DNA of 64,000 bases, taken from assembly GCA_017794925.1 (NCBI GenBank), contig CP051238.1:3613328-3677327 (forward strand), written 5' to 3'. The DNA comes from Aestuariibacter sp. Its GTDB lineage: Bacteria; Pseudomonadota; Gammaproteobacteria; Enterobacterales; Alteromonadaceae. This document shows, in pieces, positions 9,909 through 28,300 of the stretch. Every line of letters begins with the position of its first letter. Position 1 is the first letter of the stretch. The translations under genes and the position numbers were made by a program. The notes below the pieces were generated by a model, which saw nothing but the letters and a program-made list of their open reading frames with translations, was not told where the DNA came from and did not search any database.

Positions 9909-11609
9909 ATGTCAGGACACCCTGTCGTCACATCACTAACGGCGCTGTTAAGCGAAGCATTCGTTCTGACCCGCTCAGAACAAACTGAACACTACCGTTC
10001 CGGATGGCGTTCGGGTCAGGGGGAGGCCCTTGCAGTTGCATTTCCGCAAACGCTATTACAACTTTGGGAAACACTGGAAGTCTGTGTAAAACAAAATTGC
10101 ATTATTATTATGCAAGCGGCCAAGACAGGCTTAACTGAAGGCTCAACACCAAGTGGCCATGATTACGACCGCGATATAATCGTTATCAATACGTTAGCCA
10201 TGAACGACCTGGTGCTACTGGGCAACGGCGAGCAAGTATTGAGCTTCCCTGGTACCACGTTACATCAACTGGAAACCGCACTGAAACCACTGGGGCGAGC
10301 CCCCCACTCCGTGATTGGCTCGTCTTGCCTTGGGGCTTCTGTTATTGGCGGTATTGCCAACAATTCAGGCGGCGCACTGGTAAAACGGGGCCCAGCGTAT
10401 ACTGAGCTGGCTCTCTTTGCCCGGGTAACCGAAAAAGGTGAATTGGAACTGGTCAATCATTTGGATATCCCATTAGGTGATTCGCCCAGAGAAATGTTAC
10501 AAAACCTGCAAACCGGTCAGTTTGATAAGCAATGGTTACCGACCACACGAAAAGCCAGTGCTTCAGATTACGAAGCGCGATTACGCGATATTAACGCAAA
10601 CACGCCAAGTCGCTTTAATGCCGATACCAGCCGCCTTTATGAAGCGAGCGGATGCGCAGGCAAGCTGGCTGTATTTGCTGTAAGACTGGACACGTTTAAA
10701 ACGGCGCGAAAAGAGAAAACCTATTACATAGGTACCAATAATCCGGATGTTCTTACCAACTTGCGACGCGACATTCTGGGCACGTTTAAACACCTCCCTG
10801 AGGTGGGTGAATACATGCACAGAGATATCTTTGACATAGCCAGGGACTATGGGAAGGACACGTTTCTGAGTGTTAAACACCTGGGCACCCAGCGTTTGCC
10901 TAAACTTTTTGCCTTAAAGGGGAGAATTGATGCCGTACTCAACAAACAATCCTGGCTACCCGACTTTCTCTCCGACCGCATAATGCAAGGTATTGCCAAC
11001 TGCTTCCCGTCTCATCTTCCTGCTCGTCTCACAGCCTACCGAGACTTATACGAACATCACCTCATATTAAAAATGAGTGATGACGGCATCACAGAAGCAG
11101 ATACTTATCTCGCCGAGTTTTTTTCGCAGAATCACCAGCAGGGCGACTACTTTTCCTGCTCAGAGGAAGAGGCAGCCAGCGCGTATCTGAATCGCTTTGC
11201 TGCAGCAGGCGCCGCTATTCGCTACCAGTTGTTAAACCAGCAACACGTCGGCGACATGATCGCTTTGGATATTGCGCTAAAGCGAAACGAGACAAACTGG
11301 GTAGAATCACTGCCAGACAGTATTAGTCAACATATCGACCAATCCCTCTATTACGGTCATTTCTTCTGCCATGTGTTTCATCAGGACTACGTATTGAAAA
11401 AAGGTGCAGATGCGAAAGAGGTCAAAGCGGCTATGCTGGCATTGCTGGATAGCAGAGAAGCTAAATACCCCGCTGAACATAATGTCGGGCATTTATATAA
11501 AGCAGAAGATGGACTGGCTGCGTTTTACAGGGAACTGGATCCCACCAATACGTTTAATCCCGGTGTAGGAAAGCTCGACAAACATAAACGTCAGTGTGGG
11601 TGCTGTTAA
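9909..11609 (+). CDS. dld: Quinone-dependent D-lactate dehydrogenase
   Basis: This 566-residue protein matches E. coli Dld (571 residues) throughout. It is a peripheral inner-membrane FAD enzyme that oxidises D-lactate to pyruvate and passes electrons to quinone. Diagnostic segments are AAKTGLTEGSTPSG and GGIANNSGGALVKRGPAY of the PCMH-type FAD domain (residues about 68-180), the membrane-binding central part with many basic residues, and a C-terminus with NPGVGKLDKHKRQCGCC. The C-terminal Cys cluster is typical of this group. A ribosome-binding site (AAAGGA) precedes the ATG. A lactate permease gene lies 33 kb downstream in the window. Confidence 0.95.
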   Translation: MSGHPVVTSLTALLSEAFVLTRSEQTEHYRSGWRSGQGEALAVAFPQTLLQLWETLEVCVKQNCIIIMQAAKTGLTEGSTPSGHDYDRDIIVINTLAMNDLVLLGNGEQVLSFPGTTLHQLETALKPLGRAPHSVIGSSCLGASVIGGIANNSGGALVKRGPAYTELALFARVTEKGELELVNHLDIPLGDSPREMLQNLQTGQFDKQWLPTTRKASASDYEARLRDINANTPSRFNADTSRLYEASGCAGKLAVFAVRLDTFKTARKEKTYYIGTNNPDVLTNLRRDILGTFKHLPEVGEYMHRDIFDIARDYGKDTFLSVKHLGTQRLPKLFALKGRIDAVLNKQSWLPDFLSDRIMQGIANCFPSHLPARLTAYRDLYEHHLILKMSDDGITEADTYLAEFFSQNHQQGDYFSCSEEEAASAYLNRFAAAGAAIRYQLLNQQHVGDMIALDIALKRNETNWVESLPDSISQHIDQSLYYGHFFCHVFHQDYVLKKGADAKEVKAAMLALLDSREAKYPAEHNVGHLYKAEDGLAAFYRELDPTNTFNPGVGKLDKHKRQCGCC

Positions 11610-11705
11610 TGACAAAAATCAGCCCCCTCTGACGATTGAAGGACCAAGTGCGACAATTTGCCGCACGCGCAGCCACATTCTCCACATTACAATGCTCACA
11701 GAAAC

Positions 11706-11794: not shown

Positions 11795-14053
11795 TTGCGT
11801 AACCGCCCCTTATCCCCTCTGTTTATTTCAGGTATCACTGCTTTGTCAGTTCAATGTGCAATTGCTGACGCATCCAATGATAACGACATAGAGCATGTGA
11901 AAGTTGATGGACATTCACCCGCTTTACATCAACATGCCCACGGTTTAAGCCAGGAAGAGATCCAAAGTGCACTGGGCTCAACCAGTGACAGTGCTGACTT
12001 GCTGCGAAGTTTGCCCGGCGTTCACGTTAATTCGGCTGGAGGGCTGTCTGGTCTGCCAGCCATACGCGGATTGGCGGATGACCGTTTGCGAATTCAAACC
12101 GATGGTATGGATTTAATCTCATCCTGCCCAAATCACATGAACCCGCCCCTATCCTACCTGTCGCCATCAGCTCTGGCTGACGTAACGGTTTTTGCCACGA
12201 TTACACCTGTCAGTCAGGGTGGAGATAGTATCGGAGGCACAATCAGCGCTATCAGAAAGCGGCCCGAACTCGCCGTGCCTGGTGAAAGCACGTCGGTAAG
12301 CGGAGATGTCGGTGGATACTGGCGCAACAATAATCAGGCACAGGGCATTCAGGCAAATCTTAGCATTGCGAGCGCACAATGGGGTTTACTTTACAGCGGT
12401 AATACAAGTAAAGCTGAGAACTATCATGCGAGTCGCCCTTTTAAAGCAACGCGATCTACAGGCAGGCCAAACCACACGCTAAACCTCGACGAGGTGGGCT
12501 CGACGGCTTATAAAACGCAAAACCACAATCTTGCGTTGCGGTTCCAGCTTGCTACTCATGATTTTGATATTCAGATAAACCACCAGAGCATGCCTTATCA
12601 GCTGTATCCAAACCAGCGAATGGATTTACTGAACAACGATCAGCGAAGTATCAATCTTGCGTGGCGACATCAAACTGACTGGGGAAATGTCATTACGCGT
12701 ATCTACCAAGAGAACATCGATCACTTCATGAACTTTGGCGAAGACAAGCAGCGCTGGTACGGCACGCTAGCCCCAATGGGCACACCATGCAGCCCTATTC
12801 GCTTTATGGGCGACTCGGAAGGCACATGCGCAGATGGTATGCCTATGTACAGTGAATCTGTATTGAAGGCGGCTACCTCAGATATCGAATGGATGCGCAA
12901 CGACAGGGACACCCTTCGATTTGGAGCGGGTCTTCAACGTTACACATTGGACGATTACTGGACCGCGTCAGGCGGAGCCATGGGGCCTGATACGTTTGAG
13001 AACATCGATGACGGACATCGAGACCGCGTATTTGTGTACGTGGAACGTGAACAGAATTTCACATCCTCGATAGCGGCTAATTACGGTGTCAGGGCTGAGA
13101 ACATCAGTTTCAGCACCGGCGGCGTGCAGGGTTACTCCACCATGCCAAATGCACCGGGTATGCAGTATATGCAAGCCCAGCAATTCAATGCAGGTCCGCT
13201 TGAAGACAATCAGTTTAACCTGGATATTACCGCAGCACTCAACTTGATAGTCAACAACGAACTGAACACCGAGCTCGGTATTTCCAGAAAAGTGCGTTCA
13301 CCAAACCTTTATGAAAAATACACCTGGTCCAGCTGGATGATGGCTGCTTCGATGAATAACACGGTCGGAGACGGCAATGGCTACGTGGGCAATGCCAACT
13401 TAAGTGCCGAAACAGCCTACTCATTATCAGCCAGTCTGATCTGGAAACCACAAGGCAATGTGGCTCAAATAACCCTTTCACCCTACTTCACGTATGTCGA
13501 AGACTACATTGATACGGTCGCGGCAAACACCCAGTGGCAACCCGGGCAATTCAATGTGCTTAGCTACGAGAATCAGACTGCCAGACTCTATGGGATTGAT
13601 ATCAGCGCTGGCTACCGTTATGAAACTCATTCACTGGGTAACATAGATATCACAAGTTCAGTAAGCTTCTCGCACACCGAAAACACAGAGACAGGAAGTA
13701 GCCTGTATCAAACACTGCCTTTTTATGGCAACCTCACAGTCAGACACACCTCAGGGCCATGGGAAACTGAACTTAACTGGGAGTTTGCTGCCGCTAAAAC
13801 AGATATTTCTGAGATCCGAAACGAAGTTAAGACGGCTGGCTATGGCATATTGGGTTTGCAAACAGGCTATGTTTCAACACAGTTTCGAATTGATATTGGT
13901 GTTAAAAATCTACTCGATAAGTTTTACTTTGACCCAACGGCCGGTACCTATACCGGTCAGGGAATGACGATGGCATTAAATGGTATTCCCTTTGGCATTG
14001 CAGTACCCGGTATGGGTAGAAATGCCTTTGTCAGTTCAACGGTTTATTTTTGA
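11795..14053 (+). CDS. TonB-dependent copper receptor, OprC/NosA-like
   Basis: This 752-residue outer-membrane protein starts at TTG 11795 behind CAGGAG and has a signal peptide ending near ADA. A His-rich N-terminal segment (HVKVDGHSPALHQHAHG) is followed by the plug (LLRSLPGVHV, LPAIRGLADDRLRI) and a C-terminal barrel ending in a Phe (TVYF). The plug carries CPNHM (Cys111 to Met115) and the barrel carries His310-Phe-Met312. These correspond to the CxxxM and HxM copper-binding motifs described for Pseudomonas OprC, so copper uptake is the likely job. The genes that follow on the same strand are a RegB/RegA-like pair and two PepSY membrane proteins. Confidence 0.88.
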   Translation: MRNRPLSPLFISGITALSVQCAIADASNDNDIEHVKVDGHSPALHQHAHGLSQEEIQSALGSTSDSADLLRSLPGVHVNSAGGLSGLPAIRGLADDRLRIQTDGMDLISSCPNHMNPPLSYLSPSALADVTVFATITPVSQGGDSIGGTISAIRKRPELAVPGESTSVSGDVGGYWRNNNQAQGIQANLSIASAQWGLLYSGNTSKAENYHASRPFKATRSTGRPNHTLNLDEVGSTAYKTQNHNLALRFQLATHDFDIQINHQSMPYQLYPNQRMDLLNNDQRSINLAWRHQTDWGNVITRIYQENIDHFMNFGEDKQRWYGTLAPMGTPCSPIRFMGDSEGTCADGMPMYSESVLKAATSDIEWMRNDRDTLRFGAGLQRYTLDDYWTASGGAMGPDTFENIDDGHRDRVFVYVEREQNFTSSIAANYGVRAENISFSTGGVQGYSTMPNAPGMQYMQAQQFNAGPLEDNQFNLDITAALNLIVNNELNTELGISRKVRSPNLYEKYTWSSWMMAASMNNTVGDGNGYVGNANLSAETAYSLSASLIWKPQGNVAQITLSPYFTYVEDYIDTVAANTQWQPGQFNVLSYENQTARLYGIDISAGYRYETHSLGNIDITSSVSFSHTENTETGSSLYQTLPFYGNLTVRHTSGPWETELNWEFAAAKTDISEIRNEVKTAGYGILGLQTGYVSTQFRIDIGVKNLLDKFYFDPTAGTYTGQGMTMALNGIPFGIAVPGMGRNAFVSSTVYF

Positions 14054-14144
14054 CATTGCGGGCGCACGAGTAACGGCTGCCATCCTTATGCGTTGATGAT
14101 AAGCTAAGTGTTTTACAGTCGACATCGAGGCAATACCACTCACC

Positions 14145-15200
14145 ATGCTCTTGCTGCTTTACTTAGCACTATTTGGAAAACACCGGGCGCCCGTGATGCT
14201 CGTGCTTGCGCTGGTATTGTTTGAGATTATTGTACTCAATACCTCGATAGCGTTAAATGGCGCAGCCAGTAACCCTTTTTCCAGTGTACTGCTGGTACCG
14301 CTCATTCTAGGGTTAATCTGGCTACCGGCTTTTCCCGGCCTGATTGTATTAGTTGTCAGCGTAATAGCTCAAGGCATGCAGCTACTTGCCCCTGTTAGCG
14401 ATCATCACGGTGCCATGATGCAAAGTCATGCTCAGAGTATGATCGTAAGCTTTATAGCAACAAGTTGTCTAATTACTGCCGTTATACACTTTTTTAAATA
14501 CCAATTGAGATTAAAACAAGCGGCTATTCAGCAAATGCGGGAACGTCAGCTGCGCGACGAACAGTTACTGGCAATCGGTACCGCTGCAGCCCAGTTAACA
14601 CATGACGCCGCAACGCCCGTACAAACTATGCAATTGTTAATCGAAGAACTTGAAGACGCCCCGGATTCTCCGGACTTAGCCGAACTGGTCACCCAATTCA
14701 AGATACTCCAAACGTTGCTCGGTAATTGGCGTGAAGTCGCAGACGAAGTGCGGGACGCAAAAGTAAGTATTATCCCCATTCCGGTCATACTCGATAACAC
14801 CAGGCACATTGTTCGACTTAGTCGTCCGGAAGCAAATGTACATTGGCCCGCCATAGATGCCACCATTAAACAAGCAACAATTGAAGCTGATCGCACCCTG
14901 GTTCCGGCACTTGCCAGCATTGTCATTAACGCATGTGACGGGGCAAAACAACATGAAGCCAGTGTAAATATTAATACCAGCATAGCTGATGGACGCTGGG
15001 TATTAACCGTCGACAACCCTCACGATGATGCAATGCCATTCCACAACAACCTGGGCTCAAAAATGATGACCAGCGAGACTGGATTAGGAATGGGTGCGGT
15101 GCTATCAAATGCAACCATAGAAAAATTTAATGGCAACGTACACTGGCAACACAAAGAAAGTCACATATTAACCACGGTAAAGCTTCCAGTATGCAAATGA
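14145..15200 (+). CDS. RegB/PrrB-like sensor histidine kinase
   Basis: This 351-residue kinase has a membrane domain (helices near 16-34, 46-60, 63-81 and 98-117, plus a short N-terminal one), an H-box with His153 (AAQLTHDAATPVQTM) and an ATPase domain (IVINACDGAKQ, TGLGMGAVLSN). Residues 39-45 read GAASNPF, close to the RegB quinone-sensing heptapeptide GGxxNPF. The loop between the last two helices (residues 82-97) should face the periplasm and is rich in His and Met (SDHHGAMMQSHAQSM), which suggests metal binding. The stop overlaps the regulator start by 10 nt. The ATG has only a distant GAGG upstream. Confidence 0.8.
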   Translation: MLLLLYLALFGKHRAPVMLVLALVLFEIIVLNTSIALNGAASNPFSSVLLVPLILGLIWLPAFPGLIVLVVSVIAQGMQLLAPVSDHHGAMMQSHAQSMIVSFIATSCLITAVIHFFKYQLRLKQAAIQQMRERQLRDEQLLAIGTAAAQLTHDAATPVQTMQLLIEELEDAPDSPDLAELVTQFKILQTLLGNWREVADEVRDAKVSIIPIPVILDNTRHIVRLSRPEANVHWPAIDATIKQATIEADRTLVPALASIVINACDGAKQHEASVNINTSIADGRWVLTVDNPHDDAMPFHNNLGSKMMTSETGLGMGAVLSNATIEKFNGNVHWQHKESHILTTVKLPVCK

Positions 15201-15739
15201 CTCCTCCCTCACTTTTGCTGATTGTCGACGACGATGAACACTATACACGTGTTCTGAAACGTCGATTTGAGCAATGCACCGACCTTCAGATAATGTGCTT
15301 TCAGAGAGCATCGGAGGCTTTAACGTTTACCGCCTCCTCCCCCGTTTTTGGCATATTGCTGGATATGATGATGGAGGATGAAACAGGGTTGGATTATGTT
15401 TCTGCTCTTCGAGCAGCATTCAGTCCGGAACACCTGATTATCATGACCGGTTATGCAAGCATCGCCACAACGGTAACTGCAATGAAACGCGGAGCGACAG
15501 ACTATGTTGCCAAACCCATAACATTTAAAGAACTGTTGCAGAAGTTAGCATTAAAAGCTGAAAATGCGGGTGAAGTTGCACCGACATCACCACTCACAGC
15601 TGCGCAGATTGAATGGGAGCACATTCAACGCGTGCTCGCCGACAATCAGGGCAATATTTCCAGAACGGCCGAAGCGCTGGGCATGCACCGGCGCAGTTTG
15701 CAGCGAAAATTACAAAAGCATTCGCCATTAAAACAGTAA
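15191..15739 (+). CDS. RegA/PrrA-family response regulator
   Basis: This 182-residue regulator has a receiver (acidic triad at residues 13-15, phospho-acceptor Asp58 in LLDMMMEDETGLD, Thr in IIMTGY, Lys in VAKPI) joined to a Fis-type HTH (about 138-182). The segments WEHIQRVLADNQGNIS and MHRRSLQRKLQKHSP are typical of RegA/PrrA/ActR, which link redox state to gene expression. With the RegB-like kinase it forms a complete pair inside the copper cluster, so the target is probably the receptor and PepSY genes. Confidence 0.88.
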   Translation: MQMTPPSLLLIVDDDEHYTRVLKRRFEQCTDLQIMCFQRASEALTFTASSPVFGILLDMMMEDETGLDYVSALRAAFSPEHLIIMTGYASIATTVTAMKRGATDYVAKPITFKELLQKLALKAENAGEVAPTSPLTAAQIEWEHIQRVLADNQGNISRTAEALGMHRRSLQRKLQKHSPLKQ

Positions 15740-15746
15740 AAGCACA

Positions 15747-16484
15747 ATGAAAACATTAGCGATAAAATCCAGAACTCTGCATAAATGGCTGATGCGATTC
15801 ATCGGCATCCAAATGTTGATATGGGCAGTTACCGGTCTGTATATGGTGAGTCTGGATATTCATTTCATCCATGGTGAAACGCTGTCAGATGAAAAACACA
15901 CCGCATTTCCCCTTAATGACGCAACCTACCCTATCGCGTCATTGCTTGAACGCTACCCCACTGCAACCGATATTGTCCTGTACAAACGCCTGAATACCCT
16001 GGCCTACCGATTTAAACTAGCTAATAGCAAACAGTGGACGGTGATAGAGGCAACAAAAGGTGGCGTTTTGGGATTATTAACCCAATCCGAAGCAGCTGAG
16101 ATAGCTCTTCATGCCGCAACCACGTCCGGCACGATTGCGTCCACAAAACTCATCGATTTACCTCAGGCGACACCAGCAGAACTAAGCCCACGCTGGCTGC
16201 CAGTCTGGCAAATAAAATTTGATGACCTGGCCGGTACCACGTTTTACATTCAGCAGGCAACGGGGCAAATTGTAACCCGGCGACACACCTACTGGCGGGC
16301 TTTTGACTGGATGTGGCGATTACATATCATGGATTACGATGACGGTGAAAACGTCGCGAGCCCGTTGCTCACCCTGTTGACTATCCTTGCGACGCTGGCC
16401 ATTATCAGCGGCATTATCTTATTGATTAGCAGACTCATACCCGCTCGAAAAATTGCTGTCAATAAAGGAGGTGTGCATGATTAA
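15747..16484 (+). CDS. PepSY-associated membrane protein
   Basis: This 245-residue protein has an N-terminal helix beginning HKWLMRFIGIQMLIWAVTG, a periplasmic PepSY-like domain (about 40-190) and a C-terminal membrane helix preceded by the conserved WRLHIMDYDDGE. The same pattern (HKWL...helix...LH-MDY) occurs in the next gene, so the two are paralogues. Relatives include PepSY membrane proteins that reduce metal-siderophore complexes in the periplasm, such as FpvG. It starts 7 nt after the regA-like stop and overlaps the next gene by 8 nt. Confidence 0.75.
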   Translation: MKTLAIKSRTLHKWLMRFIGIQMLIWAVTGLYMVSLDIHFIHGETLSDEKHTAFPLNDATYPIASLLERYPTATDIVLYKRLNTLAYRFKLANSKQWTVIEATKGGVLGLLTQSEAAEIALHAATTSGTIASTKLIDLPQATPAELSPRWLPVWQIKFDDLAGTTFYIQQATGQIVTRRHTYWRAFDWMWRLHIMDYDDGENVASPLLTLLTILATLAIISGIILLISRLIPARKIAVNKGGVHD

Positions 16485-17472
16485 TCGTGTGGTACTTTCA
16501 GGCTGGCATAAGTGGTTATCGCTATTCGTTGGTATTCAGCTGTTAATTTGGGTGGGAACCGGCATTTATTTTAATCAAATGGATGCGCAGGCTGCGTCGG
16601 GAAACATGTACAGGAAGACCGTCTCACACCGGGGTAACACGCCAACATCCGACTTTATGCCGCTGGAAAAACTGGCCCTCAACGAGCCGGTAGTGTCTGC
16701 AGCACTCATCTGGGTGTCCGGTACGCCGCTGTATCTGGTGAAAACTGAAAACCCGCTGCATAATTACTCCGCACAACAACACACACTGTTTCACGCCGTA
16801 TCGGGGTTACCCTGGTATATTCAGCCTGACGATGTACAACGTATTGCTCAACGTTCATATACAGGGCCCGGTCAGGCGTCAGAAGCTGTTCTGACTCTTC
16901 CGCCGTTTGATTTCGATGGCCGTCAGGAGAATCTATTGTGGAAGGTATCCTTTGACGATGAGGTGCACACTGACGTATATCTGCATGCAGAAACGGGCGC
17001 AGTCATTGCGCACAGTAATGATGACTCGCGTTTAAAGCACCTGATGTTAACGCTGCATTTTATGGATTATGCGAACACAGGCGGCTTCAATCATGCATTA
17101 ATTGTCATCTTTGCGATCGCGACGCTGACACTGGCTGGAAGCGGTGTTTTGCTGGCTTACCGTCGAAATCCCAACCGGGCTGTGCGTAGAAAGCGCGAAA
17201 CAGATGTGCGGGTTATTCATACTGGTGGGTGTGAAACACTTTCCCTACCAGCAAACCAACCGCTGCTTTTTGCGTTAACCCAGGCAGGCTTAAGCGTCTC
17301 GACAGAGTGCGGTGGTGGTGGTACATGTGGTCAGTGTGTTGTACAAACCGACAATACGGTTGCAGTCAGCGACGTTGACCGATATCACCTGACTGAAGAT
17401 GAGTTACAACAAGGAAAACGACTGAGTTGCCAGCATGTTAGCAGCGAATTTACTTCCGTCACTCTCAAATAA
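16477..17472 (+). CDS. PepSY membrane protein fused to an NqrF-like 2Fe-2S domain
   Basis: This 331-residue protein starts at ATG 16477 behind an excellent AAAGGAGG site. Residues 1-240 repeat the PepSY-TM pattern of the upstream gene (HKWLSLFVGIQLLIWVGTG, TLHFMDY, final helix). After a basic linker comes a ferredoxin domain with CGGGGTCGQC (Cys-x5-Cys-x2-Cys) and a fourth Cys in RLSCQHV. This spacing is that of NqrF-type 2Fe-2S domains. The iron-sulfur domain should be cytoplasmic, after the last helix and basic residues, so the protein could carry electrons across the membrane to a periplasmic metal such as Cu(II) or Fe(III). That function is inferred. Confidence 0.8.
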   Translation: MINRVVLSGWHKWLSLFVGIQLLIWVGTGIYFNQMDAQAASGNMYRKTVSHRGNTPTSDFMPLEKLALNEPVVSAALIWVSGTPLYLVKTENPLHNYSAQQHTLFHAVSGLPWYIQPDDVQRIAQRSYTGPGQASEAVLTLPPFDFDGRQENLLWKVSFDDEVHTDVYLHAETGAVIAHSNDDSRLKHLMLTLHFMDYANTGGFNHALIVIFAIATLTLAGSGVLLAYRRNPNRAVRRKRETDVRVIHTGGCETLSLPANQPLLFALTQAGLSVSTECGGGGTCGQCVVQTDNTVAVSDVDRYHLTEDELQQGKRLSCQHVSSEFTSVTLK

Positions 17473-17479
17473 CAGCCAC

Positions 17480-17518
17480 AAAAAAAACCGCACTGACATC
17501 AGTGCGGCTCTTTCGTTT
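17480..17518. terminator. Bidirectional terminator
   Basis: CCGCACTG-ACAT-CAGTGCGG (stem 17488-17507) is preceded by an A run and followed by a T-rich tract. It separates the convergent PepSY-ferredoxin gene and the aromatic-acid permease gene. Confidence 0.85.
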
Positions 17519-17555: not shown

Positions 17556-18869
17556 CTAGTGCCTGAACCAATACACGGCAATGCCTGCGATGAGTAATGG
17601 CAATGCAAACAACATAAACAAGTCATACATGCCCCAGTGTGCTGCCACCAGATAGCCCGCGACAATCGGAGACAAAATCGCGCCGATTCGCCCCAGTCCC
17701 GCAGCCCAGCCTATTCCTGTTGCCCGAACACTGGTTGGGTAAACACGGGCTGCCATCGCATACATGGCGGTAAACGCGCCTTGTAATAAGAACCCAATGA
17801 TGAAAATTAACGTGTTCAACCAAAATACCGAGGTGGGTTGCCAGTAGGCGACTAGCGCCAAAAATACCGCCGAGCCAATGAAATATATTGCAATGGGTTT
17901 GGCCAGTTTAATTTTAGTCGCGATTAATCCGATAAGTACAATCCCCGCGACAGCGCCCAGATTATATAACGTGAGAGCAGCTATGCCTTGAGAACGCTCA
18001 TAACCACTGTTCACAAATAATGTCGGGATCCACGACATCAAAAAATACAGCGACATAAACCCCATAAAATAAATCAACCAGACGCCCATCGTCTGCATAC
18101 CCAGGTCTTGCTTAAACAAATTCGCAACTGAAATACGTTGCTTTTCAACTGTGTGTTCAGGTAGCTCACTCATTGCAGTACAACCCATGCTGCTCAGAAT
18201 ACGGTTGATTCGATACAACTTGTCGTTTTCATTACCTGCTTGTGTGGCAACAAACTCGATAGACTCCGGCAAATAAAAATACAGCACCACTGTCATCAGT
18301 AACGTAAACAGGCCACCATATACAAATACCATTTCCCAACCAGATGACTCTATAATGGCATTTGCAATGGGGCCCACAATCGTCGCGCCGGCGGCATATC
18401 CCATTACGATAATGGTCACCACCAGATTGCGCATTTTTTCCGGCGCAAACTCAGCACCAATGGTTGCTGAATTAGCGAAGATAATGCCAATCCCCAACCC
18501 CGAGATGGCCCGGATGGCGATCATCCATTCAACAGACTGAGGTATGAACCCTGTCACCACCATTGAAACGCCAATCATAATCGTGGCAATGATCAGGATG
18601 TTTCGTCGTCCTATCTTGTCGGCAAAAGGCGCAAGAAACATAGCGCCTAACGTCATGCCGATCAAAGCGGCACTCAAAATATACCCCTTTTCCGTCGCAG
18701 ATATCCCCCAGTCGGCGGTCAAAGATGGCATGGCGACGGACATCGCCACCACGTCAAAACCATCAACCACATTCAACAGAAATGCAATTGCAAACACAAT
18801 GTACTGGGTAAAAGAGACGGGGGCTCTGTCTATATGATGACGGACAGATTCGACAATGCTGGTACTCAT
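17556..18869 (-). CDS. MFS aromatic acid:H+ symporter (AAHS/PcaK type)
   Basis: This 437-residue, 12-helix transporter carries the AAHS signature in helix 1 (DGFDVVAMSVAMPSL), the MFS motif APFADKIGRRN between helices 2 and 3, and the central and C-terminal motifs SGLGIGIIFANSATI and YPTSVRATGIGWAAGLGRIG. Members import protocatechuate, 4-hydroxybenzoate, gallate or related acids. It borders the ring-cleavage cluster and should provide the inner-membrane step for substrate uptake. Confidence 0.88.
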   Translation of the reverse strand: MSTSIVESVRHHIDRAPVSFTQYIVFAIAFLLNVVDGFDVVAMSVAMPSLTADWGISATEKGYILSAALIGMTLGAMFLAPFADKIGRRNILIIATIMIGVSMVVTGFIPQSVEWMIAIRAISGLGIGIIFANSATIGAEFAPEKMRNLVVTIIVMGYAAGATIVGPIANAIIESSGWEMVFVYGGLFTLLMTVVLYFYLPESIEFVATQAGNENDKLYRINRILSSMGCTAMSELPEHTVEKQRISVANLFKQDLGMQTMGVWLIYFMGFMSLYFLMSWIPTLFVNSGYERSQGIAALTLYNLGAVAGIVLIGLIATKIKLAKPIAIYFIGSAVFLALVAYWQPTSVFWLNTLIFIIGFLLQGAFTAMYAMAARVYPTSVRATGIGWAAGLGRIGAILSPIVAGYLVAAHWGMYDLFMLFALPLLIAGIAVYWFRH

Positions 18870-19084
18870 AACGACTTCCTCGTGCCAGGGGCATTGTTAA
18901 TTAATTCGCAAACAGAAAATAAAGCACTTTCCAATATTGTTACGACTATGTAACACTCCGGTCATGGATACCAATTAAAAAATACGATTCAGCCATAAGA
19001 AAAAGCTAATTTACCCCATAAATACGGGAGACAAAGTAAGCAATTTCTTTTATAAAATTTTATTTGACTACCGAGAAAAGTTTA

Positions 19085-20311
19085 TCAAACTAATTGCGAC
19101 TCGCTTTGCGCTATGAGTTTTATGTGGTCAATCAGCGCTATTTGCGTTTGAGTCAGAACACTGTCTTCACGGTATTGCAACACGATAGTACGCTGCGCAT
19201 TAAACCCCTTTATTTGCTTACTCACCATGGTGCCACTCATCAATTCATGTCGGGCCTGAGCCTCTGACAACAGCATCAGTGCCGGACTATTTTCCAGTAT
19301 CACACGCGAAGCAGACAGAGAATTGCATTCGATCACGTTTTCAGGCGCTGCCACATTGTGTTCGTGAAACAAGGCTTCATAGGTTTTGCGAAGGGGGGAT
19401 GAGGTTCTGGGCAGAATCCACGGGTAAGCCAATAACGCTTCTACTGCCAACTCATTTTTTGTTGCAAGTGGATGATTGCGCGACATAAGCAATACAATTG
19501 ACTCAGTTAAAATTGGCTCTTCCTTAATATCGACTCCATCAGGTAAACGGCGCGACGCACCGACCAGAATATCCAGTTTACCCCGCATTAGATCGTGTAA
19601 AAGGTATTCATAAGATCCTTCAACAATAGAGATTTTGTGACTGGGATACTGGTGTTTAAATTCTGTTGAAGCCTTGGGAATAATATAGCTTCGAGCCATC
19701 GGCATGGCACCAATAGCCGTGTTACCCTTTTCCTTATGCGACATTTTAGCCAGTTCTGCAAAGGCCAGTTCAATCTCCCGCTCCATAACGCCAGCCACCT
19801 GTGCTAACTGAATTGCCACCTTAGTAGGCTTAATACCAAAACTGGTTCGTTCGAATAAATCCACGTTAACTGTTTGTTCCAAATCCCTTGCTGCACGGTG
19901 GATTGTTGGATTTGCTTTGTTTGAGATGGCTGCACCAGCACTAAAGCTACCCGCTTCTGCCACAGCCTTGAGTGCATTCAATTGTGTCATGGTGATATGC
20001 CTTGACACATTTTTAGGCACTTGCCCGAAGTTTTTAAGCATCAAATCAAAAAAACTATCCAGTGAATTGAGTGCACGGCTTACTCTTCGCCACAAGGTCG
20101 CTGCCTCATCTGTCGCCGTAATGCCTTTAGTGGAGCGGTGAAAAAATTTCACCTCGAAATTTCGCTCTAAACATTTAATTGCCTGGCTTATCGCTGGTTG
20201 AGAACGGCCTAACAGCTCTGCTGTTTTAGAAATAGAGCGTATGTCATAAACGGTTAAAAACACCCGCAAATGAAACAGGTTTAAATTACTTGTCGCTTTC
20301 TTTTCCAGCAT
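19085..20311 (-). CDS. LysR-family regulator with two tandem HTH domains
   Basis: This 408-residue protein (from ATG 20311; the frame extends to a TTG at 20356) is about 100 residues longer than usual LysR regulators. It has two successive LysR-type HTH domains: LRVFLTVYDIRSISKTAELL and, about 100 residues later, LNALKAVAEAGSFSAGAAIS. Each ends in the typical LFERT-like motif. A LysR effector-binding domain follows (SIVEGSYEYLLHDLMRGKLD). It is divergent from the TonB receptor gene, and the intergenic region contains the palindrome TGATATCA (20388-20395). A second regulator of the same design lies at 30230-31423. Confidence 0.85.
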   Translation of the reverse strand: MLEKKATSNLNLFHLRVFLTVYDIRSISKTAELLGRSQPAISQAIKCLERNFEVKFFHRSTKGITATDEAATLWRRVSRALNSLDSFFDLMLKNFGQVPKNVSRHITMTQLNALKAVAEAGSFSAGAAISNKANPTIHRAARDLEQTVNVDLFERTSFGIKPTKVAIQLAQVAGVMEREIELAFAELAKMSHKEKGNTAIGAMPMARSYIIPKASTEFKHQYPSHKISIVEGSYEYLLHDLMRGKLDILVGASRRLPDGVDIKEEPILTESIVLLMSRNHPLATKNELAVEALLAYPWILPRTSSPLRKTYEALFHEHNVAAPENVIECNSLSASRVILENSPALMLLSEAQARHELMSGTMVSKQIKGFNAQRTIVLQYREDSVLTQTQIALIDHIKLIAQSESQLV

Positions 20312-20474
20312 ATCTGAAATACCAATACCATCTATCCATAAAGGTAAAATTAGCAATTTCTTATATCAAAAGTCAATTTTCAATTGGTGATATCACTGGC
20401 AGTATTAGATAGTCGTCGTGACACAATATGTTAACAACATAATTACAATAGTTTTAATCGATGAGGGCACAGAG

Positions 20475-22913
20475 ATGAAAACAATTAACATGTCACGTAT
20501 TGCGGTTGCTATTGCAACCGGTTTGGCTTTGCAGTCGGGTGTTGTATTTGCTCAGGAACAAACTGAGGAAAGTGCAAAAACCGGGGCAAGTCAGGCACTT
20601 GACAAAATTACCGTAACAGCACGAAAAGTAACCGAAAATCTGCAAGAAGTACCGGTTTCAGTCACGTCTTTCAATGGCGATGCACTGGAGCGTCGTCAAA
20701 TTACCGGGTCTGATGACATTGGTAAGATTACGCCTAACTTGCAATTTACTAATAATGCACCGTTGGCCGGCAACAATAACTCGTCAGTCATCTTCGTAAG
20801 GGGCGTAGGGCAAATTAGTCCCCGTGCGAACACGGATCCCGGCGTTGGTCTCTACATTGATGACGTCTATATCGGGCAATCAGTGGGTGGCAATATGGAA
20901 CTTCGCGATATTGAAAGCGTTCAGGTTCTGCGTGGTCCACAAGGCACATTGTTTGGCCGTAATACTATTGGTGGCGCCGTACTGATTAATACCCAGGCGC
21001 CCGGCGATGAATTGGGCGGAAAAGTCAGATTTGGCATCGGTGAAGACTCACTCATAGAAGCCTTCGGTGCCATTGATATTCCTATCTCAGACAGCTTACT
21101 GACACGCTTCACCGCGGGAACGAAAAAACAAGACGGTTACGTAAAACGTCTTTATGACGGCCTCGATTTGGGTGACACCAACAACACGACTTTCTCGGCC
21201 AAGGTGTATTATGACCCAAGTGATAAATTTACCGCGAAATTCCTGTACGACTATACCGATGCTGACGAAAACGGCTCAGCATTAGTCTTCGCGGGGTACA
21301 ATAATAACGACGACGTGACCAATACGTCACATGATGCGGGTTGGTTTGGTGCAAGCCAAAGTGTGATTGCAGGTTGTCCCGATGCGTGGATTGCCTACCC
21401 AGGTCCTCCAGGACGTCCGGTTACCACCGCAGAAGGTTCTGCACTGGATGTATCGGGATTACTCACCAGCGGCGGTGGCCCGCGCGGGTACACCGGTGAA
21501 AATACAGATTCACGCTGTGTAAACAGTCAGTGGAATGCTGGCCCGTTTGCGAATAACGGCACAGCCGAAATGGGCAGTTCAATGACCAACTGGGGCGCAT
21601 CACTGAATTTAGAGTATGCATTTACCAATGAATTTACTGCCAAATCCATTACGTCATATCGCAATCTGGAATGGGTAGGTCGACGTGACGCCGACAACAC
21701 GCCTTTCACCATTTTGCATACTGACTTCGATTCTTCCGGCGATCAATTCAGCCAGGAGTTCCAGTTTAACTATGTCACGGACAATCTGACAGCCGTCGCG
21801 GGCGTCTATTACTATGAAGAGGAAGTGACAGATATCCTGACCGTTCAGGTGGGTGATAAGGCGGCTGGTACCAGTTGCGGCGAAGGCACGGATGGTTGTC
21901 ATCTGGACAGTGACAATAACATCACTCAGAACGAGTCTTTTGCTTATTACACCCAGGTCACTTACGACATTACAGAGCAGCTCAGCGCTGCAGTGGGTAT
22001 TCGTCGCACAGAAGAAACGAAAGGCTCTATTCCGGATCAGTTTGATTATGCCAATCCTGAAGCCAAGTACCTTGAAGTGAAGTTGTATGAAGCCGACTTC
22101 TCCGCTACCACAATGTCATTTAATTTAAGCTATCAGATGTCTCGCGACACCATGTTCTACGGGAGTTTTTCTGAAGGCTTTAAAGGAGGTGGCTGGAACT
22201 CTACCTTTAACTTTGCGCTGACCGAGTCAGATTTGGAAGCCGGCCATAAGTTTGACCAGGAAGAGGTGGAAACCATTGAGTTTGGCTTTAAGTCAGATAT
22301 CACCGATAGCTTCCGATTAAATGGGGCAATCTTCAGTTCGGACTATACCGACTTGCAATTTACTTACCGGGTATTTATTGCCCCCTGGTTTTTCAACGCA
22401 GGTAAAGCGTCAATTGACGGTGCCGAGTTAGAGTTTACCTGGGTTCCCCATGATGACTGGGTCATAGAAGGTGGTTTCGGCTATCTGGATTCATCGGTCG
22501 ACGAAGCGGTTGAAATTGAAGTGCCTGGTCGTCCGGTTAACACCGGCGTTGCCGAAGGTAACCAGCTGCCGTTTGCACCGGAATTCCAGGGCAATATAGG
22601 TATTGGCTACTATGCTGAGCTGGACGACTATCTGGTCATGCCGCGCATCGATGTATCGTTTAGCGACAAAGTATACTTTGATGCCAGTAACACGGCATTA
22701 ATTGCACAAATGGACAGCTACAGTACAGTCGATATGTCCGTCACGGTGCAGCCATTTGATGAAATCTGGAAACTCACTGTCGGTGTAAATAACGCAACAG
22801 ATGAAGTCTATAAGGTGTCGGGTAACTCATCACTGGGCTCAGGCAGTGGTTATGCCGAGGCGGCCTATGCGCGTCCTCGAGTCGTCTTTGCCAACTTTAC
22901 TTACGAATTTTAA
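20475..22913 (+). CDS. TonB-dependent receptor in the aromatic catabolic island
   Basis: This 812-residue receptor starts at ATG 20475 (GAGG site nearby) with a signal peptide ending FAQ. The TonB box region (LDKITVTARKV), plug (QEVPVSVTSFNGDAL, FVRGVGQ, GVGLYIDDVYIG, LRGPQGTLFGRNTIGGAV) and a beta-barrel ending in YEF place it in the FepA/FecA-type class most common in alteromonads and sphingomonads. Its position next to the dioxygenase gene, on the same strand, suggests uptake of a lignin-derived aromatic acid, as reported for receptors such as DdvT in Sphingobium. The ligand is inferred. Confidence 0.85.
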   Translation: MKTINMSRIAVAIATGLALQSGVVFAQEQTEESAKTGASQALDKITVTARKVTENLQEVPVSVTSFNGDALERRQITGSDDIGKITPNLQFTNNAPLAGNNNSSVIFVRGVGQISPRANTDPGVGLYIDDVYIGQSVGGNMELRDIESVQVLRGPQGTLFGRNTIGGAVLINTQAPGDELGGKVRFGIGEDSLIEAFGAIDIPISDSLLTRFTAGTKKQDGYVKRLYDGLDLGDTNNTTFSAKVYYDPSDKFTAKFLYDYTDADENGSALVFAGYNNNDDVTNTSHDAGWFGASQSVIAGCPDAWIAYPGPPGRPVTTAEGSALDVSGLLTSGGGPRGYTGENTDSRCVNSQWNAGPFANNGTAEMGSSMTNWGASLNLEYAFTNEFTAKSITSYRNLEWVGRRDADNTPFTILHTDFDSSGDQFSQEFQFNYVTDNLTAVAGVYYYEEEVTDILTVQVGDKAAGTSCGEGTDGCHLDSDNNITQNESFAYYTQVTYDITEQLSAAVGIRRTEETKGSIPDQFDYANPEAKYLEVKLYEADFSATTMSFNLSYQMSRDTMFYGSFSEGFKGGGWNSTFNFALTESDLEAGHKFDQEEVETIEFGFKSDITDSFRLNGAIFSSDYTDLQFTYRVFIAPWFFNAGKASIDGAELEFTWVPHDDWVIEGGFGYLDSSVDEAVEIEVPGRPVNTGVAEGNQLPFAPEFQGNIGIGYYAELDDYLVMPRIDVSFSDKVYFDASNTALIAQMDSYSTVDMSVTVQPFDEIWKLTVGVNNATDEVYKVSGNSSLGSGSGYAEAAYARPRVVFANFTYEF

Positions 22914-23024
22914 CCCGTAACAGGAATGGCCCGGGCACCAGTGAAGTCTTTCGCTGGGGTCATTCCTACCTTTGCCCAACATGAATCGCGTCTATATGAA
23001 CGCATTACATTGCAAGAGGAACAT

Positions 23025-24278
23025 ATGGCTAACATCATAGGTGGCATCGGTGTCTCCCATACCCCTACTATTGGCTTTGCCCAGGACAAAGCGCTTCGGG
23101 AACAACCTGCATGGAAACCTGTTTTTGAGCAGTTTGACCATGTCGGTCGTTATCTCAGCAACAAACAACCCGACGCGTTGGTATTTATTTATAACGACCA
23201 TATTACGTCCTTTTTCTTTGATCATTATTCGCCCTTTGCGCTTGGTGTAGATGACACATTCAGTCCAGCCGATGAAGGCGGCGGAGCGCGTGACTACCCT
23301 CCTATCTCAGGACATCCTGCCCTGGCAAGGCACATAGGGCAATCGTTATTTGCTGACGAATTTGACCTTTCTTTTTTTCAGAAAAAGCCCATTGACCATG
23401 GCTTATTTTCCCCACTTTCGATGATGACAGACCGCGGCTCTCGCTGGGACAAACCGGTCATTCCTCTGCAAGTAGGTGTCCTACAGTTCCCGATACCTAC
23501 CGCAGCCCGTTGTTTCAAACTGGGCAAAGCGTTGCGTCGCGCCATCGAAAGCTACCCGGAAGATATCAACGTCGTCATCGTAGCAACCGGCGGCCTTTCT
23601 CATCAGGTACATGGTGAACGCTGCGGCTTTAATAATCCCGATTGGGATGAACAGTTTCTCGACTTGCTCGAAAGCGATCCTTCGCAACTGGCTTCCATGA
23701 CCCACGCAGACTATGCCCGCTTGGGCGGTCTGGAGGGAGCCGAAGTGATCATGTGGTTGATCATGCGCGGGGCGCTGTCCGAGCAAGTCGATTGTTTACA
23801 CCGTGCCACTTACCTTCCATCCATGACCAATATCGCGACGGTTATTTATAAGGATAAGGGCAAAAGTGCGCCTGAAGAGGTATTAGCACATCAGCAGAAA
23901 ATGGGAGAACAGCTTGCGGGTATCGAACAAATTCCGGGCACCCACCCCTTCACTCTGGCGCAAGCACATCGTGCCTGGCGATTAAATAATTTCCTGCATA
24001 AACTCATTGAACCTGCACACAGGCAGCAGTTTGTTGACTCGCCTGACACCTTATATGAGGCATACGGGTTAACTGAACCGGAAATTGCTCTGCTGAAAGC
24101 GCGGGACTGGATAGGCCTTATTCACTATGGTGTCATTTTCTTCAGTCTGGAGAAAATGGCCGCGGTGCTAGGCATGACCAACATCGACATTTATGCCCAA
24201 ATGAGCGGCAAAACCGTTGAGGAATTCCAGCAATCCCGAAATGCGGCTATTACGTATTCGGTCGCAGACAAAGCCTGA
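23025..24278 (+). CDS. Single-chain extradiol dioxygenase, gallate/protocatechuate type (GalA/DesB-like)
   Basis: This 417-residue protein combines a LigB-type catalytic domain (residues 1 to about 280) with a LigA-like C-terminal domain (about 300-400). Fe(II) ligands expected from DesB are present: His12 in GVSHTP, His59 in YNDHITS, and a Glu in GGLEGAEVIMW. The ATG at 23025 has a GAGGAA site and makes the length match DesB (418). DesB/GalA open gallate at the 4,5 bond. Here LigC and LigI follow the ring cleavage, which are needed only after protocatechuate cleavage, so this enzyme may use protocatechuate as well or instead. Confidence 0.88.
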   Translation: MANIIGGIGVSHTPTIGFAQDKALREQPAWKPVFEQFDHVGRYLSNKQPDALVFIYNDHITSFFFDHYSPFALGVDDTFSPADEGGGARDYPPISGHPALARHIGQSLFADEFDLSFFQKKPIDHGLFSPLSMMTDRGSRWDKPVIPLQVGVLQFPIPTAARCFKLGKALRRAIESYPEDINVVIVATGGLSHQVHGERCGFNNPDWDEQFLDLLESDPSQLASMTHADYARLGGLEGAEVIMWLIMRGALSEQVDCLHRATYLPSMTNIATVIYKDKGKSAPEEVLAHQQKMGEQLAGIEQIPGTHPFTLAQAHRAWRLNNFLHKLIEPAHRQQFVDSPDTLYEAYGLTEPEIALLKARDWIGLIHYGVIFFSLEKMAAVLGMTNIDIYAQMSGKTVEEFQQSRNAAITYSVADKA

Positions 24279-24297
24279 CTGAGCAAAAACTTGCTAT

Positions 24298-24315
24298 CCC
24301 CCGCCGTGACGGGGG
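24298..24315. terminator. GC-rich hairpin between convergent genes
   Basis: CCCCCG-CCGTGA-CGGGGG sits between the dioxygenase and aldo/keto reductase stops. There is no T run on either side, so termination is plausible but not certain. Confidence 0.45.
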
Positions 24316-24330
24316 AGGCTTAGCGACACA

Positions 24331-25317: not shown

Positions 25318-25380
25318 CCTCGCTCTCCTTAACGCAAAACGGCCTGCACCTGGCAAGCCGTTAACTGTAATAGGTTATTC

Positions 25381-26322: not shown

Positions 26323-26370
26323 ATTCGTTACTCCACGTGATTCAGGTTACGTGAGCGGCCAGGCCGCTGC

Positions 26371-28280: not shown

Positions 28281-28300
28281 GGATGAGTCCTCAATCGTTA

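Follow-up and report, generated by a model that had tools for sequence, protein, structure and literature searches.

In Bordetella pertussis, the CruR-CrtA-CrpH operon has been proposed to supply copper for respiration and to reduce copper in the periplasm (PMC12914433, PMC13038864; all papers are cited here from partial text). CrpH belongs with FoxB among the PepSY_TM proteins, and the electron donor of FoxB is an open question according to the CrpH paper (PMC13038864). The control of respiration and denitrification by the RegBA system is well established (PMC8191878, PMC4064962). Copper uptake over bacterial outer membranes and its control are both poorly known. The locus compared with these systems lies in a 64-kb stretch of DNA from a marine bacterium (the window) and encodes an OprC-like receptor, a RegB/RegA-type pair and two PepSY proteins. 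Taken together, the evidence somewhat favours a copper-acquisition unit controlled by how oxidised or reduced the respiratory chain is.

Layout of the cluster and its recurrence

Five ORFs, all on the + strand, span 11795-17472 in the order receptor, kinase, regulator, PepSY-1 and PepSY-ferredoxin (Table 1). They are separated by 91 bp, a 10-bp overlap, 7 bp and an 8-bp overlap, which bears out the preliminary description of five consecutive same-strand genes with short gaps or overlaps. The family names of the first three denote relationships, not assignments, because their scores lie below the curated cut-offs: the receptor reaches 104 bits with the TonB-copper model TIGR01778 (cut-off 472), the kinase 51 bits with the RegB model NF033792 (350) and the regulator 137 bits with the RegA model NF033791 (250). 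Profile searches found a Plug domain in the receptor (45.7 bits) and Response_reg (68 bits) and HTH_8 (47.6 bits) domains in the regulator. The more likely start of PepSY-ferredoxin is the ATG at 16477, preceded by AAAGGAGGTGTGC, rather than the TTG at 16453. The sequence has 15 terminator-like hairpins, among them the one 3' of the last gene, and shuffled sequences have scarcely fewer (mean 10.7, sd 3.8).

Table 1. Coordinates of the genes, motifs and sites discussed, in window positions
Feature	Position	Strand	Remarks
D-lactate dehydrogenase gene (dld)	9909..11609	+	NF008387, 899 bits vs cut-off 391
15-bp palindrome, candidate binding site of the RegA-like regulator	11650..11664		145 bp before receptor start
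OprC-like TonB-dependent receptor	11795..14053	+	752 aa, TTG start
CxxxM (C111, M115), receptor plug	12125..12139	+	invariant in 21/21 triad receptors; aligns with OprC CxxxM
HxM (H310, M312), receptor barrel	12722..12730	+	invariant in 21/21 triad receptors; aligns with OprC HxM
Short RegB-like sensor kinase	14145..15200	+	351 aa
GAASNPF in kinase	14259..14279	+	counterpart of RegB quinone motif GGXXNPF, one change
RegA-like response regulator	15191..15739	+	182 aa; receiver and Fis-type HTH
PepSY-1	15747..16484	+	245 aa; half-length PepSY_TM protein
PepSY-ferredoxin	16477..17472	+	half-length PepSY_TM protein with C-terminal [2Fe-2S] domain
Four [2Fe-2S] cysteines (C278, C284, C287, C318)	17308..17430	+	numbering from ATG 16477; invariant in 10/10 receptor-linked homologues
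Terminator-like hairpin	17488..17507	+	3' of last gene; pattern match only

With the kinase as the query, the receptor-kinase-regulator triad was found in 20/20 named loci, from Alteromonas, Marisediminitalea, Salinimonas, Idiomarina, Paraglaciecola and Shewanella. This recurrence is therefore more than chance, and an absence of synteny, which was to have refuted the proposal, is excluded for the triad. The synteny expected in several genera is less general for the PepSY genes, found in only 10 of the 20 loci, one set being damaged. The gene dld, which ends 185 bp upstream of the receptor, stands at the head of the cluster in 10/10 PepSY-bearing named loci and is placed elsewhere in other genomes; its membership is uncertain and it is possibly an ancestral flank. 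In eight of the ten PepSY-bearing triad loci, the PepSY pair lies with dld upstream of the palindromic box, and no box within one mismatch was found 5' of dld in those eight. Beside the triad, the pair is found in two arrangements of the genes. In the tree, every receptor-linked pair falls on a single branch, and one insertion may explain them all.

Palindromic box and the RegB/RegA-type pair

RegA/PrrA/RoxR regulators bind a GCG-type palindromic box. The palindrome upstream of the receptor, GCGACAATTTGCCGC, is a new finding here and a putative site of the RegA-like regulator. Exact matches to GCGRCANNNTGYCGC number one in the window (the 11650-11664 site) and three in the genome; with up to one mismatch, the genome of the window has 62 matches vs 56 for the reversed control, so such matches are no commoner. 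Near the receptor start, the box was present in 21/21 triad loci (14 exact, 6 with one mismatch and 1 with two). A survey of 256 genomes of the order yielded 41 with an OprC-like receptor. The exact box preceded the receptor in 36/36 of those with a RegB-type kinase and in 0/5 of those without, counts that ignore kinship, the five kinase-less genomes coming from two genera. In the same survey, 0/164 gene-body control windows had a box within one mismatch. The strict box occurs 52 times in 60 kinase-bearing genomes vs 5 times for the reversed pattern, and seven of its sites are located 243-370 bp before RegB matches. Unlinked boxes were also found 5' of PepSY_TM genes in three genomes (G749, G009 and G161), each of which has the strict box exactly twice: before the receptor and before the PepSY gene. 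A common control site in the DNA appears to tie OprC-like receptors to a RegB-type switch in many related bacteria. As the presence of the box follows that of the RegB-type kinase, the idea that such receptors are under respiratory redox control can be tested directly.

The quinone heptapeptide of RegB is GGXXNPF (PMC8191878). All 24 short kinases have GAA[ST]NPF, in which one of the five fixed residues is altered, and 7 of the 11 longer RegB-type kinases have GGXXNAF. In the alignment, the redox-box cysteine, in a column read as the RegB Cys-265 position, is absent from 24/24 short kinases and present in 11/11 longer ones. The N-terminal stretch of the longer kinases is missing from the short kinase, whose hydropathy profile has some four or five segments instead of the six N-terminal membrane helices of RegB. 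Judged by its sequence, the kinase of the cluster is a RegB in shortened form, with no redox cysteine. The proposed RegB/RegA-type control stands in that the box 5' of the receptor tracks the presence of the kinase, and is to be amended as to the kinase itself, which lacks both the cysteine and the N-terminal stretch.

Receptor and PepSY proteins

All four OprC copper-site ligand positions are kept in the window receptor and in 21/21 receptors of the linked loci, in agreement with the OprC-type receptor that had been claimed; copper transport itself is predicted from this likeness. Among the 21 linked receptors, a single Cys and a number of Met never vary, in contrast to the published description of CrtA as a family with no conserved Cys or Met and distinct from OprC (PMC12914433). 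Across the order, HxM is kept in 41/41 OprC-like receptors and CxxxM in only 12/41, the copper-site Cys being replaced by Gly in the other 29. For this reason, boxed receptors need not all serve copper.

PepSY_TM scores are 29.6 bits for PepSY-1 and 36.9 bits for PepSY-ferredoxin (cut-off 28.8). The NqrF-like 2Fe-2S domain reported earlier in the latter matches Fer2 at 36.6 bits (cut-off 21) and has four cysteines that are invariant in the receptor-linked homologues; positive charges would place it on the cytosolic side. Histidines at both membrane faces are conserved in 11/11 PepSY-1 proteins (H12 and H193) and in 14/14 second PepSY proteins (H12 and H195, numbering from 16474). Each window protein has one PepSY unit and two helices, whereas the FoxB/CrpH build is a single chain with two such units and four or more helices; both halves form one chain in locus L039. 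Confidence in the structure models is modest (pLDDT 69.6 and 72.4), and the fold match with FoxB (7abw) is weak (Z 5.1, rmsd 10.5, 159 aligned, rank 33).

The domain search found Fer2 alone in the window PepSY-ferredoxin, without FAD or NAD domains, and [2Fe-2S], FAD and NAD domains together in the relatives of L024, L028 and L039. Many relatives of the pair are located in RND-efflux loci, after the pump genes and before CopC/CopD (Pfam-checked in L024), and those beside RND-pump, CopC and CopD genes bear Fer2, FAD and NAD domains. In four loci, the PepSY-1 relative extends the pump reading frame (Pfam-checked in L024), which suggests one electron route for copper import and export. The joining of PepSY_TM helices to a ferredoxin, and to FAD/NAD in relatives, offers an answer as to where PepSY_TM metal reductases get their electrons.

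A proposed copper-acquisition route, its rivals and the known systems

The cluster most likely combines quinone-linked control of copper uptake with outward electron delivery that would reduce copper. The short kinase would read the quinone pool through its quinone-type motif, the pool presumably shifting to a more reduced state on failure of copper-dependent respiratory enzymes, and signal to the RegA-like regulator, which may bind the box and control, in whichever direction, the receptor together with the genes that follow it in this genome, the regulator's own included. Copper would be imported through the CxxxM-HxM site in a TonB-driven manner. PepSY-1 and PepSY-ferredoxin could pair as one FoxB/CrpH-like unit, in which cytosolic electrons would enter the [2Fe-2S] domain, cross two putative hemes, each half contributing one His at either membrane face, and convert Cu(II) in the periplasm to Cu(I). 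The copper might then serve cuproenzymes such as heme-copper oxidases, or N2O reductase where nosR has the box. More tentatively, with a chance somewhat below even, Alteromonas, Idiomarina, Shewanella and kin would share a widespread regulon for copper acquisition, in which a short RegB sensor, built for the purpose and encoded next to the receptor, meters import by the quinone pool and not by copper itself; one lineage would have added a split PepSY-heme-ferredoxin wire for copper reduction, and sister lineages would link that wire, together with an NAD(P)H module of its own, to copper-type efflux pumps.

The cluster could instead be a NosA-like unit that supplies copper to N2O reductase or to further low-oxygen enzymes within a RegBA respiratory regulon, quinone-pool control then answering to oxygen and not to copper shortage. 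The established respiratory role of RegBA agrees with this, as do boxes before nosR in 4/20 fetched unlinked sites (NCBIfam models identified three, and L228 was recognised from its likeness to L224) and, in L217, before a TonB-copper receptor scoring over the cut-off. However, the regulator site appears nearly unique in the window genome and the short kinase adjoins the receptor, both pointing to a dedicated loop; the low-oxygen arm is thereby unlikely. It is quite improbable that the pair serves copper (or silver) defence, that is, metal export or detoxification, borrowed beside the receptor to keep periplasmic copper manageable: its relatives in RND-pump loci, the PepSY-1 that runs on from the pump frame and an SO_0444-family Cu/Zn efflux gene adjoining the triad-only locus L048 fit such a role, but the cluster in the window has no efflux gene and the receptor's box precedes unlinked PepSY_TM genes in three genomes.

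Similarly improbable is uptake of iron, zinc, heme or a metal chelate, with the pair as a ferric-type reductase. The low TIGR01778 score, the matches of heme and ZnuD models to linked receptors and the missing copper-site Cys elsewhere in the order would suit it, and among the PepSY_TM enzymes characterised so far, the majority are ferrisiderophore reductases (PMC13038864); against it, window-type receptors keep the four OprC ligand positions without exception. That the PepSY pair is a chance neighbour without a role in the receptor's work is very improbable, since it is kept beside the triad in two gene orders and unlinked PepSY_TM genes in G749, G009 and G161 share the box, although half of the triad loci lack it and the linked pairs are a single branch. 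Against the preferred reading, copper acquisition, counts the observation that loss of CrtA in Bordetella does not mimic loss of CrpH (PMC13038864).

With OprC/NosA (PMC8610252), the window receptor shares the CxxxM-HxM ligand positions and a similar plug and barrel over most of its length; it differs in falling under the TIGR01778 cut-off and in its genetic tie to a RegB/RegA-type pair. FoxB (7abw; PMC13038864) has in common the PepSY_TM family and His at both membrane faces, whereas the window pair is split into two proteins and carries the presumably cytosolic [2Fe-2S] domain. This domain resembles that of NqrF from Na+-NQR in sequence and fold, as do FAD and NAD domains in the relatives; unlike in NqrF, it is joined to PepSY_TM helices, and the window copy has no FAD/NAD part. 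Sensor helices, a near-identical quinone motif, the H-box and a Fis-type regulator are shared with RegB/RegA (PrrBA, ActSR, RoxSR; PMC8191878), from which the window kinase departs by its shorter N-terminus, the missing redox-box cysteine and its local position beside a candidate target. In Methylomonas sp. DH-1, RegA raises the expression of a TonB-dependent receptor (PMC13274454), a comparable tie that also speaks for the iron reading; that system concerns iron, a siderophore receptor and a global RegBA, and the part of its description used here mentions no OprC-like receptor or PepSY protein.

The closest published system is Bordetella CrtA-CrpH (2026). The preliminary description knew of no operon with this combination, and its novelty has to be narrowed, as the 2026 papers (PMC12914433, PMC13038864) already couple a copper TonB transporter to a PepSY_TM protein. 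The logic is the same, and the receptor, the regulator and the build of the reductase differ: the CruR upstream ORF in Bordetella is replaced here by a two-component system, and CrpH, one full-length chain with no [2Fe-2S] domain named in the text drawn on, by a split pair with such a domain.

Conserved loci and the putative copper site of the receptor

The preliminary description had suggested a copper uptake and reduction role for a receptor, a RegBA pair and PepSY-ferredoxin proteins. The five ORFs it named are present on the + strand at the coordinates listed in the table and are tightly spaced; for the PepSY-ferredoxin gene, the most likely start is ATG 16477, which is preceded by a strong ribosome site. 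The receptor, a TonB plug protein, shows a relationship to TIGR01778 but scores far below the cut-off of that model. RegB and RegA are the models closest to the kinase and the regulator, both of which score under the cut-offs. Both membrane proteins belong to PepSY_TM, and the second carries Fer2. The D-lactate dehydrogenase gene dld ends 185 bp 5' of the receptor gene. The promoter scan gave 10 sites against a mean of 14.8 in shuffled sequences, fewer than expected, and no promoter was therefore assigned.

Coordinates of the cluster, its surroundings and features of related loci
Feature	Location	Strand	Remarks
dld	window 9909-11609	+	
Box	window 11650-11664		sequence GCGACAATTTGCCGC
OprC-like receptor	window 11795-14053	+	
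Kinase	window 14145-15200	+	
Regulator	window 15191-15739	+	
PepSY-1	window 15747-16484	+	
PepSY-ferredoxin	window 16477-17472	+	
LysR-family protein	window 19085-20356	-	two HTH_1 stretches matched; second HTH-like region precedes substrate domain
RND pump-PepSY-1 fusion	L024:7152-11012	-	ACR_tran 802 bits, Pfam
RND pump-PepSY-1 fusions	L026:6025-9858, L027:8105-11938, L030:5979-9833		ORF length and PepSY-1 match
TonB-copper receptor	L217:3-1760 (G513)	-	over TIGR01778 cut-off; box 37 bp upstream
Two other, unrelated-looking TonB receptors	L221:1868-3601, L227:1459-3198		strict box ~60 bp upstream

With three aligned kinases as the query, the named genomes yielded 20 loci, in Alteromonas, Aestuariibacter, Marisediminitalea, Salinimonas, Paraglaciecola, Idiomarina, Shewanella and MAGs. 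Several of these are near-identical to each other, and four pairs of fetched loci are from the same genome (L021 and L047, L025 and L045, L118 and L049, L132 and L053). Conserved synteny across several genera, proposed earlier as a check, was found for the triad of receptor, kinase and regulator, which lie on one strand in the same order in 20/20 loci. It did not extend to the PepSY genes throughout, these being present in 10 triad loci and absent from the other 10. All PepSY-bearing loci also contain dld, and two gene orders occur among them. L041 and L042 share that of the window, dld-receptor-kinase-regulator-PepSY-PepSY; the remaining eight, including L058 with its damaged or misassembled PepSY genes, have dld-PepSY-PepSY-receptor-kinase-regulator. 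Triad-only locus L048 adjoins an SO_0444-family Cu/Zn efflux gene (441.7 bits, cut-off 300), and in L049 a similar ORF occupies the same place.

The best solved relative of the window receptor is OprC of Pseudomonas aeruginosa; a profile of 13 linked receptors aligned with it across most of its length (152 bits). According to the excerpted text of PMC8610252, OprC binds copper via CxxxM-HxM. Its counterparts in the window receptor are C111, M115, H310 and M312, positions invariant in all 21 triad-locus receptors, where the CxxxM and HxM halves each align with those of OprC. The window genome has one receptor of the OprC-like type (at E 1e-5). In the order-wide set, drawn from 256 genomes, HxM is kept in 41/41 receptors, and the Cys of CxxxM in only 12; Gly stands instead in the other 29, a substitution that argues against a pure copper reading. 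OprC without this Cys loses Cu(II) loading and retains silver binding (excerpt of PMC8610252). GxxxM-HxM receptors (L120, L124, L125 and further genomes) often face longer RegB-type kinases, with an exact palindromic box present.

The kinase is a RegB relative with GAASNPF at the place of the RegB quinone motif, which is given as GGXXNPF in the excerpt of PMC8191878. It is short, lacking the N-terminal stretch of the longer RegB-type kinases, and a cysteine present in 11/11 of the longer kinases occurs in 0/24 short forms (one genome counted twice). Among 49 RegB-model matches in the window genome, none besides the cluster kinase reaches the sensor region of the model. With a short sensor that lacks this cysteine and is the sole sensor-region match of the genome, the pair has the appearance of a RegBA that is local and specialised. 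The kinase also has a His/Met-rich loop, HHxxMMxxHA, which was considered as a copper sensor and rejected: it is clear in most PepSY-bearing loci and degenerate in triad-only loci, and a related His/Met loop is present in the longer RegB-type kinases.

The palindromic box and its candidate regulon

Among the new elements of the analysis, the link between box, kinase and receptor stands out as the strongest and the one most open to testing. All 21 triad loci carry the pattern GCGRCANNNTGYCGC close to the receptor start (exact in 14, with one mismatch in 6 and two in 1), and in 13 of the 14 exact-box loci the exact match is unique within the locus. In a wider test of 256 genomes of the order, 41 were matched by the receptor profile and 60 by the kinase profile. 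Triad loci were the source of both the receptor profile and the box pattern, and these loci included three of the 41 (G000, G749, G942). In 20/41 receptor genomes the receptor and kinase genes are no more than 5 kb apart, as same-strand triads in 5 and with a longer RegB-type kinase on the opposite strand in 15. An exact box falls between -350 and +90 relative to the receptor start as called in 36/41 genomes. Start codons were called as the first of each ORF, which leaves a few boxes just inside the ORF as called, including those of nosR in L219 and L231. The 36 genomes are exactly those with a kinase; the best matches in the five without one (no kinase-profile match at E 1e-25) have 3 or 4 mismatches. 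Fisher's test of this co-occurrence gave 1.3e-6, relatedness being ignored; the kinase-less genomes are confined to two genera and thus represent few independent losses. None of the 164 gene-body control windows came within one mismatch of the box.

In the window genome, the relaxed box pattern has three exact matches in 4.7 Mb, and matches with up to one mismatch are about as frequent as those of the reversed control (62 against 56). The regulon there may therefore be limited to the cluster alone.

Across the 60 kinase-bearing genomes there are 52 occurrences of the strict box GCGACAWNWTGTCGC and 5 of the reversed pattern. Of these sites, 23 are 5' of receptors and 7 lie, by coordinates only, 243-370 bp before RegB matches, as would be predicted for autoregulation. 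Twenty of the remaining 22 were examined (the G783 and G617 sites were left out). A PepSY_TM gene is found 3' of the box in three (G749, G009, G161), a NosR gene in four, a TonB-copper receptor over the cut-off in one, other TonB receptors in two, and a solute-binding-like protein, an FAD oxidoreductase and a transglutaminase-like protein in one each; seven are without a clear target gene. The PepSY_TM score in L215 is 27.7, just below the cut-off of 28.8, and the NosR scores of 794-865, measured on incomplete stretches, are below the cut-off of 1000. The nosR-like genes with the box at their start are those of L219, L224, L228 and L231 (G647, G812, G800, G838).

The box form GCGACANNNTGTCGC occurs only twice in each of G749, G009 and G161, before the receptor and before the PepSY gene, and the G749 and G009 triads have no adjoining PepSY genes. 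The shared box thus links PepSY proteins with the receptor without reliance on gene order. The boxed TonB-copper receptor of L217 would extend the RegA-type link to canonical OprC/NosA, and the nosR boxes suggest N2O reduction within the same candidate regulon.

The PepSY pair, its pump-associated relatives and dld

PepSY-1 and PepSY-ferredoxin each comprise one PepSY unit flanked by two helices, each helix being preceded by an invariant His (11/11 PepSY-1, 14/14 second proteins). In FoxB, two His pairs hold two hemes, and the His of CrpH are placed alike, the periplasmic two being needed (excerpt of PMC13038864). By analogy, the pair would jointly supply two FoxB-like His pairs for two hemes; the fold match between FoxB and PepSY-1 is weak, so we infer the pairing of the two halves. 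A sequence search with the PepSY-1 profile recovered no solved structure of a relative, and PepSY-1 gave no Foldseek match at E 0.001 or better and none in PHROGs. A strongly positive stretch after the second helix of PepSY-ferredoxin would place the [2Fe-2S] domain in the cytosol. The four Cys of this domain are invariant in 10/10 receptor-linked homologues, and its fold matches the NqrF ferredoxin domain (E 5.7e-6; Z 12.4). PepSY-1-type proteins were found in 12/370 genomes (class-wide search, E 1e-12). In the tree, receptor-linked PepSY-1 proteins group together as a single branch (support 97/92), consistent with one recruitment.

In same-genus relatives, the PepSY pair comes after RND-pump genes, whose adaptor and outer-membrane labels are guesses from gene order and size. 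The second PepSY protein has 588-624 aa in 11/14 of these loci. Pfam found FAD and NAD domains in that of L024, the sole pump-locus protein tested, as well as in two proteins from other loci, L028 and L039; L039 has both PepSY halves and all domains on one chain. CopC and CopD follow the pair in L024, the one locus where these and ACR_tran were Pfam-checked. In four loci PepSY-1 is in frame with the RND pump (1278-1287 aa), with the PepSY-ferredoxin partner next.

The window PepSY-ferredoxin is without the FAD/NAD part and must therefore receive its electrons from another protein. Position alone makes Dld a candidate, the appeal being that dld comes first in the cluster under both gene orders and that in L045 its ORF overlaps the PepSY-1 ORF as called. 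As the Fer2 donor it was rejected, since dld elsewhere has another neighbourhood and the Fer2-only pump loci L022 and L023 are without it. In other same-genus genomes, the dld homologue occupies another conserved setting, next to an 858-aa ORF, which we take to be ClpB-like, in seven of the eight loci L069-L076 (L069, L070, L072-L076; L071 is incomplete), and it adjoins a LysR-like gene in L077. Possibly dld is an ancestral flank of the cluster.

On its other side, the cluster adjoins a region (window 17556-29404) with an MFS transporter, a LysR regulator, a TonB receptor, a LigAB-type ring-opening dioxygenase, two amidohydrolases, PrpF, an aldo/keto reductase and a Gfo/Idh/MocA oxidoreductase; it looks like an aromatic-acid catabolic cluster.

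Proposed mechanism and known systems

Gene order, protein families, ligand positions, the box, its co-occurrence with the kinase and the domain chain in relatives are direct observations. In the mechanism judged most likely, faltering copper-dependent respiration would leave the quinone pool more reduced, which is the presumed signal. The kinase would relay the quinone state to the regulator, which would probably raise expression of the receptor operon. The receptor would then admit its putative metal, copper, into the periplasm, and the PepSY pair would pass cytosolic electrons from its donor through [2Fe-2S] and the predicted hemes to Cu(II).

Among the titles and abstract openings listed by searches of open-licence PMC, none linked RegBA to OprC-type receptors or to PepSY proteins, or copper to PepSY-ferredoxin. 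RegBA is described as driving a TonB receptor for iron in the excerpt of PMC13274454. In the CruR-CrtA-CrpH system of Bordetella (2026), a copper TonB transporter, a PepSY_TM protein and respiration are coupled, as given in excerpts of PMC12914433 and PMC13038864. Compared with this system, as far as those excerpts describe it, the cluster has another receptor family, another regulator type and another build of the reductase.
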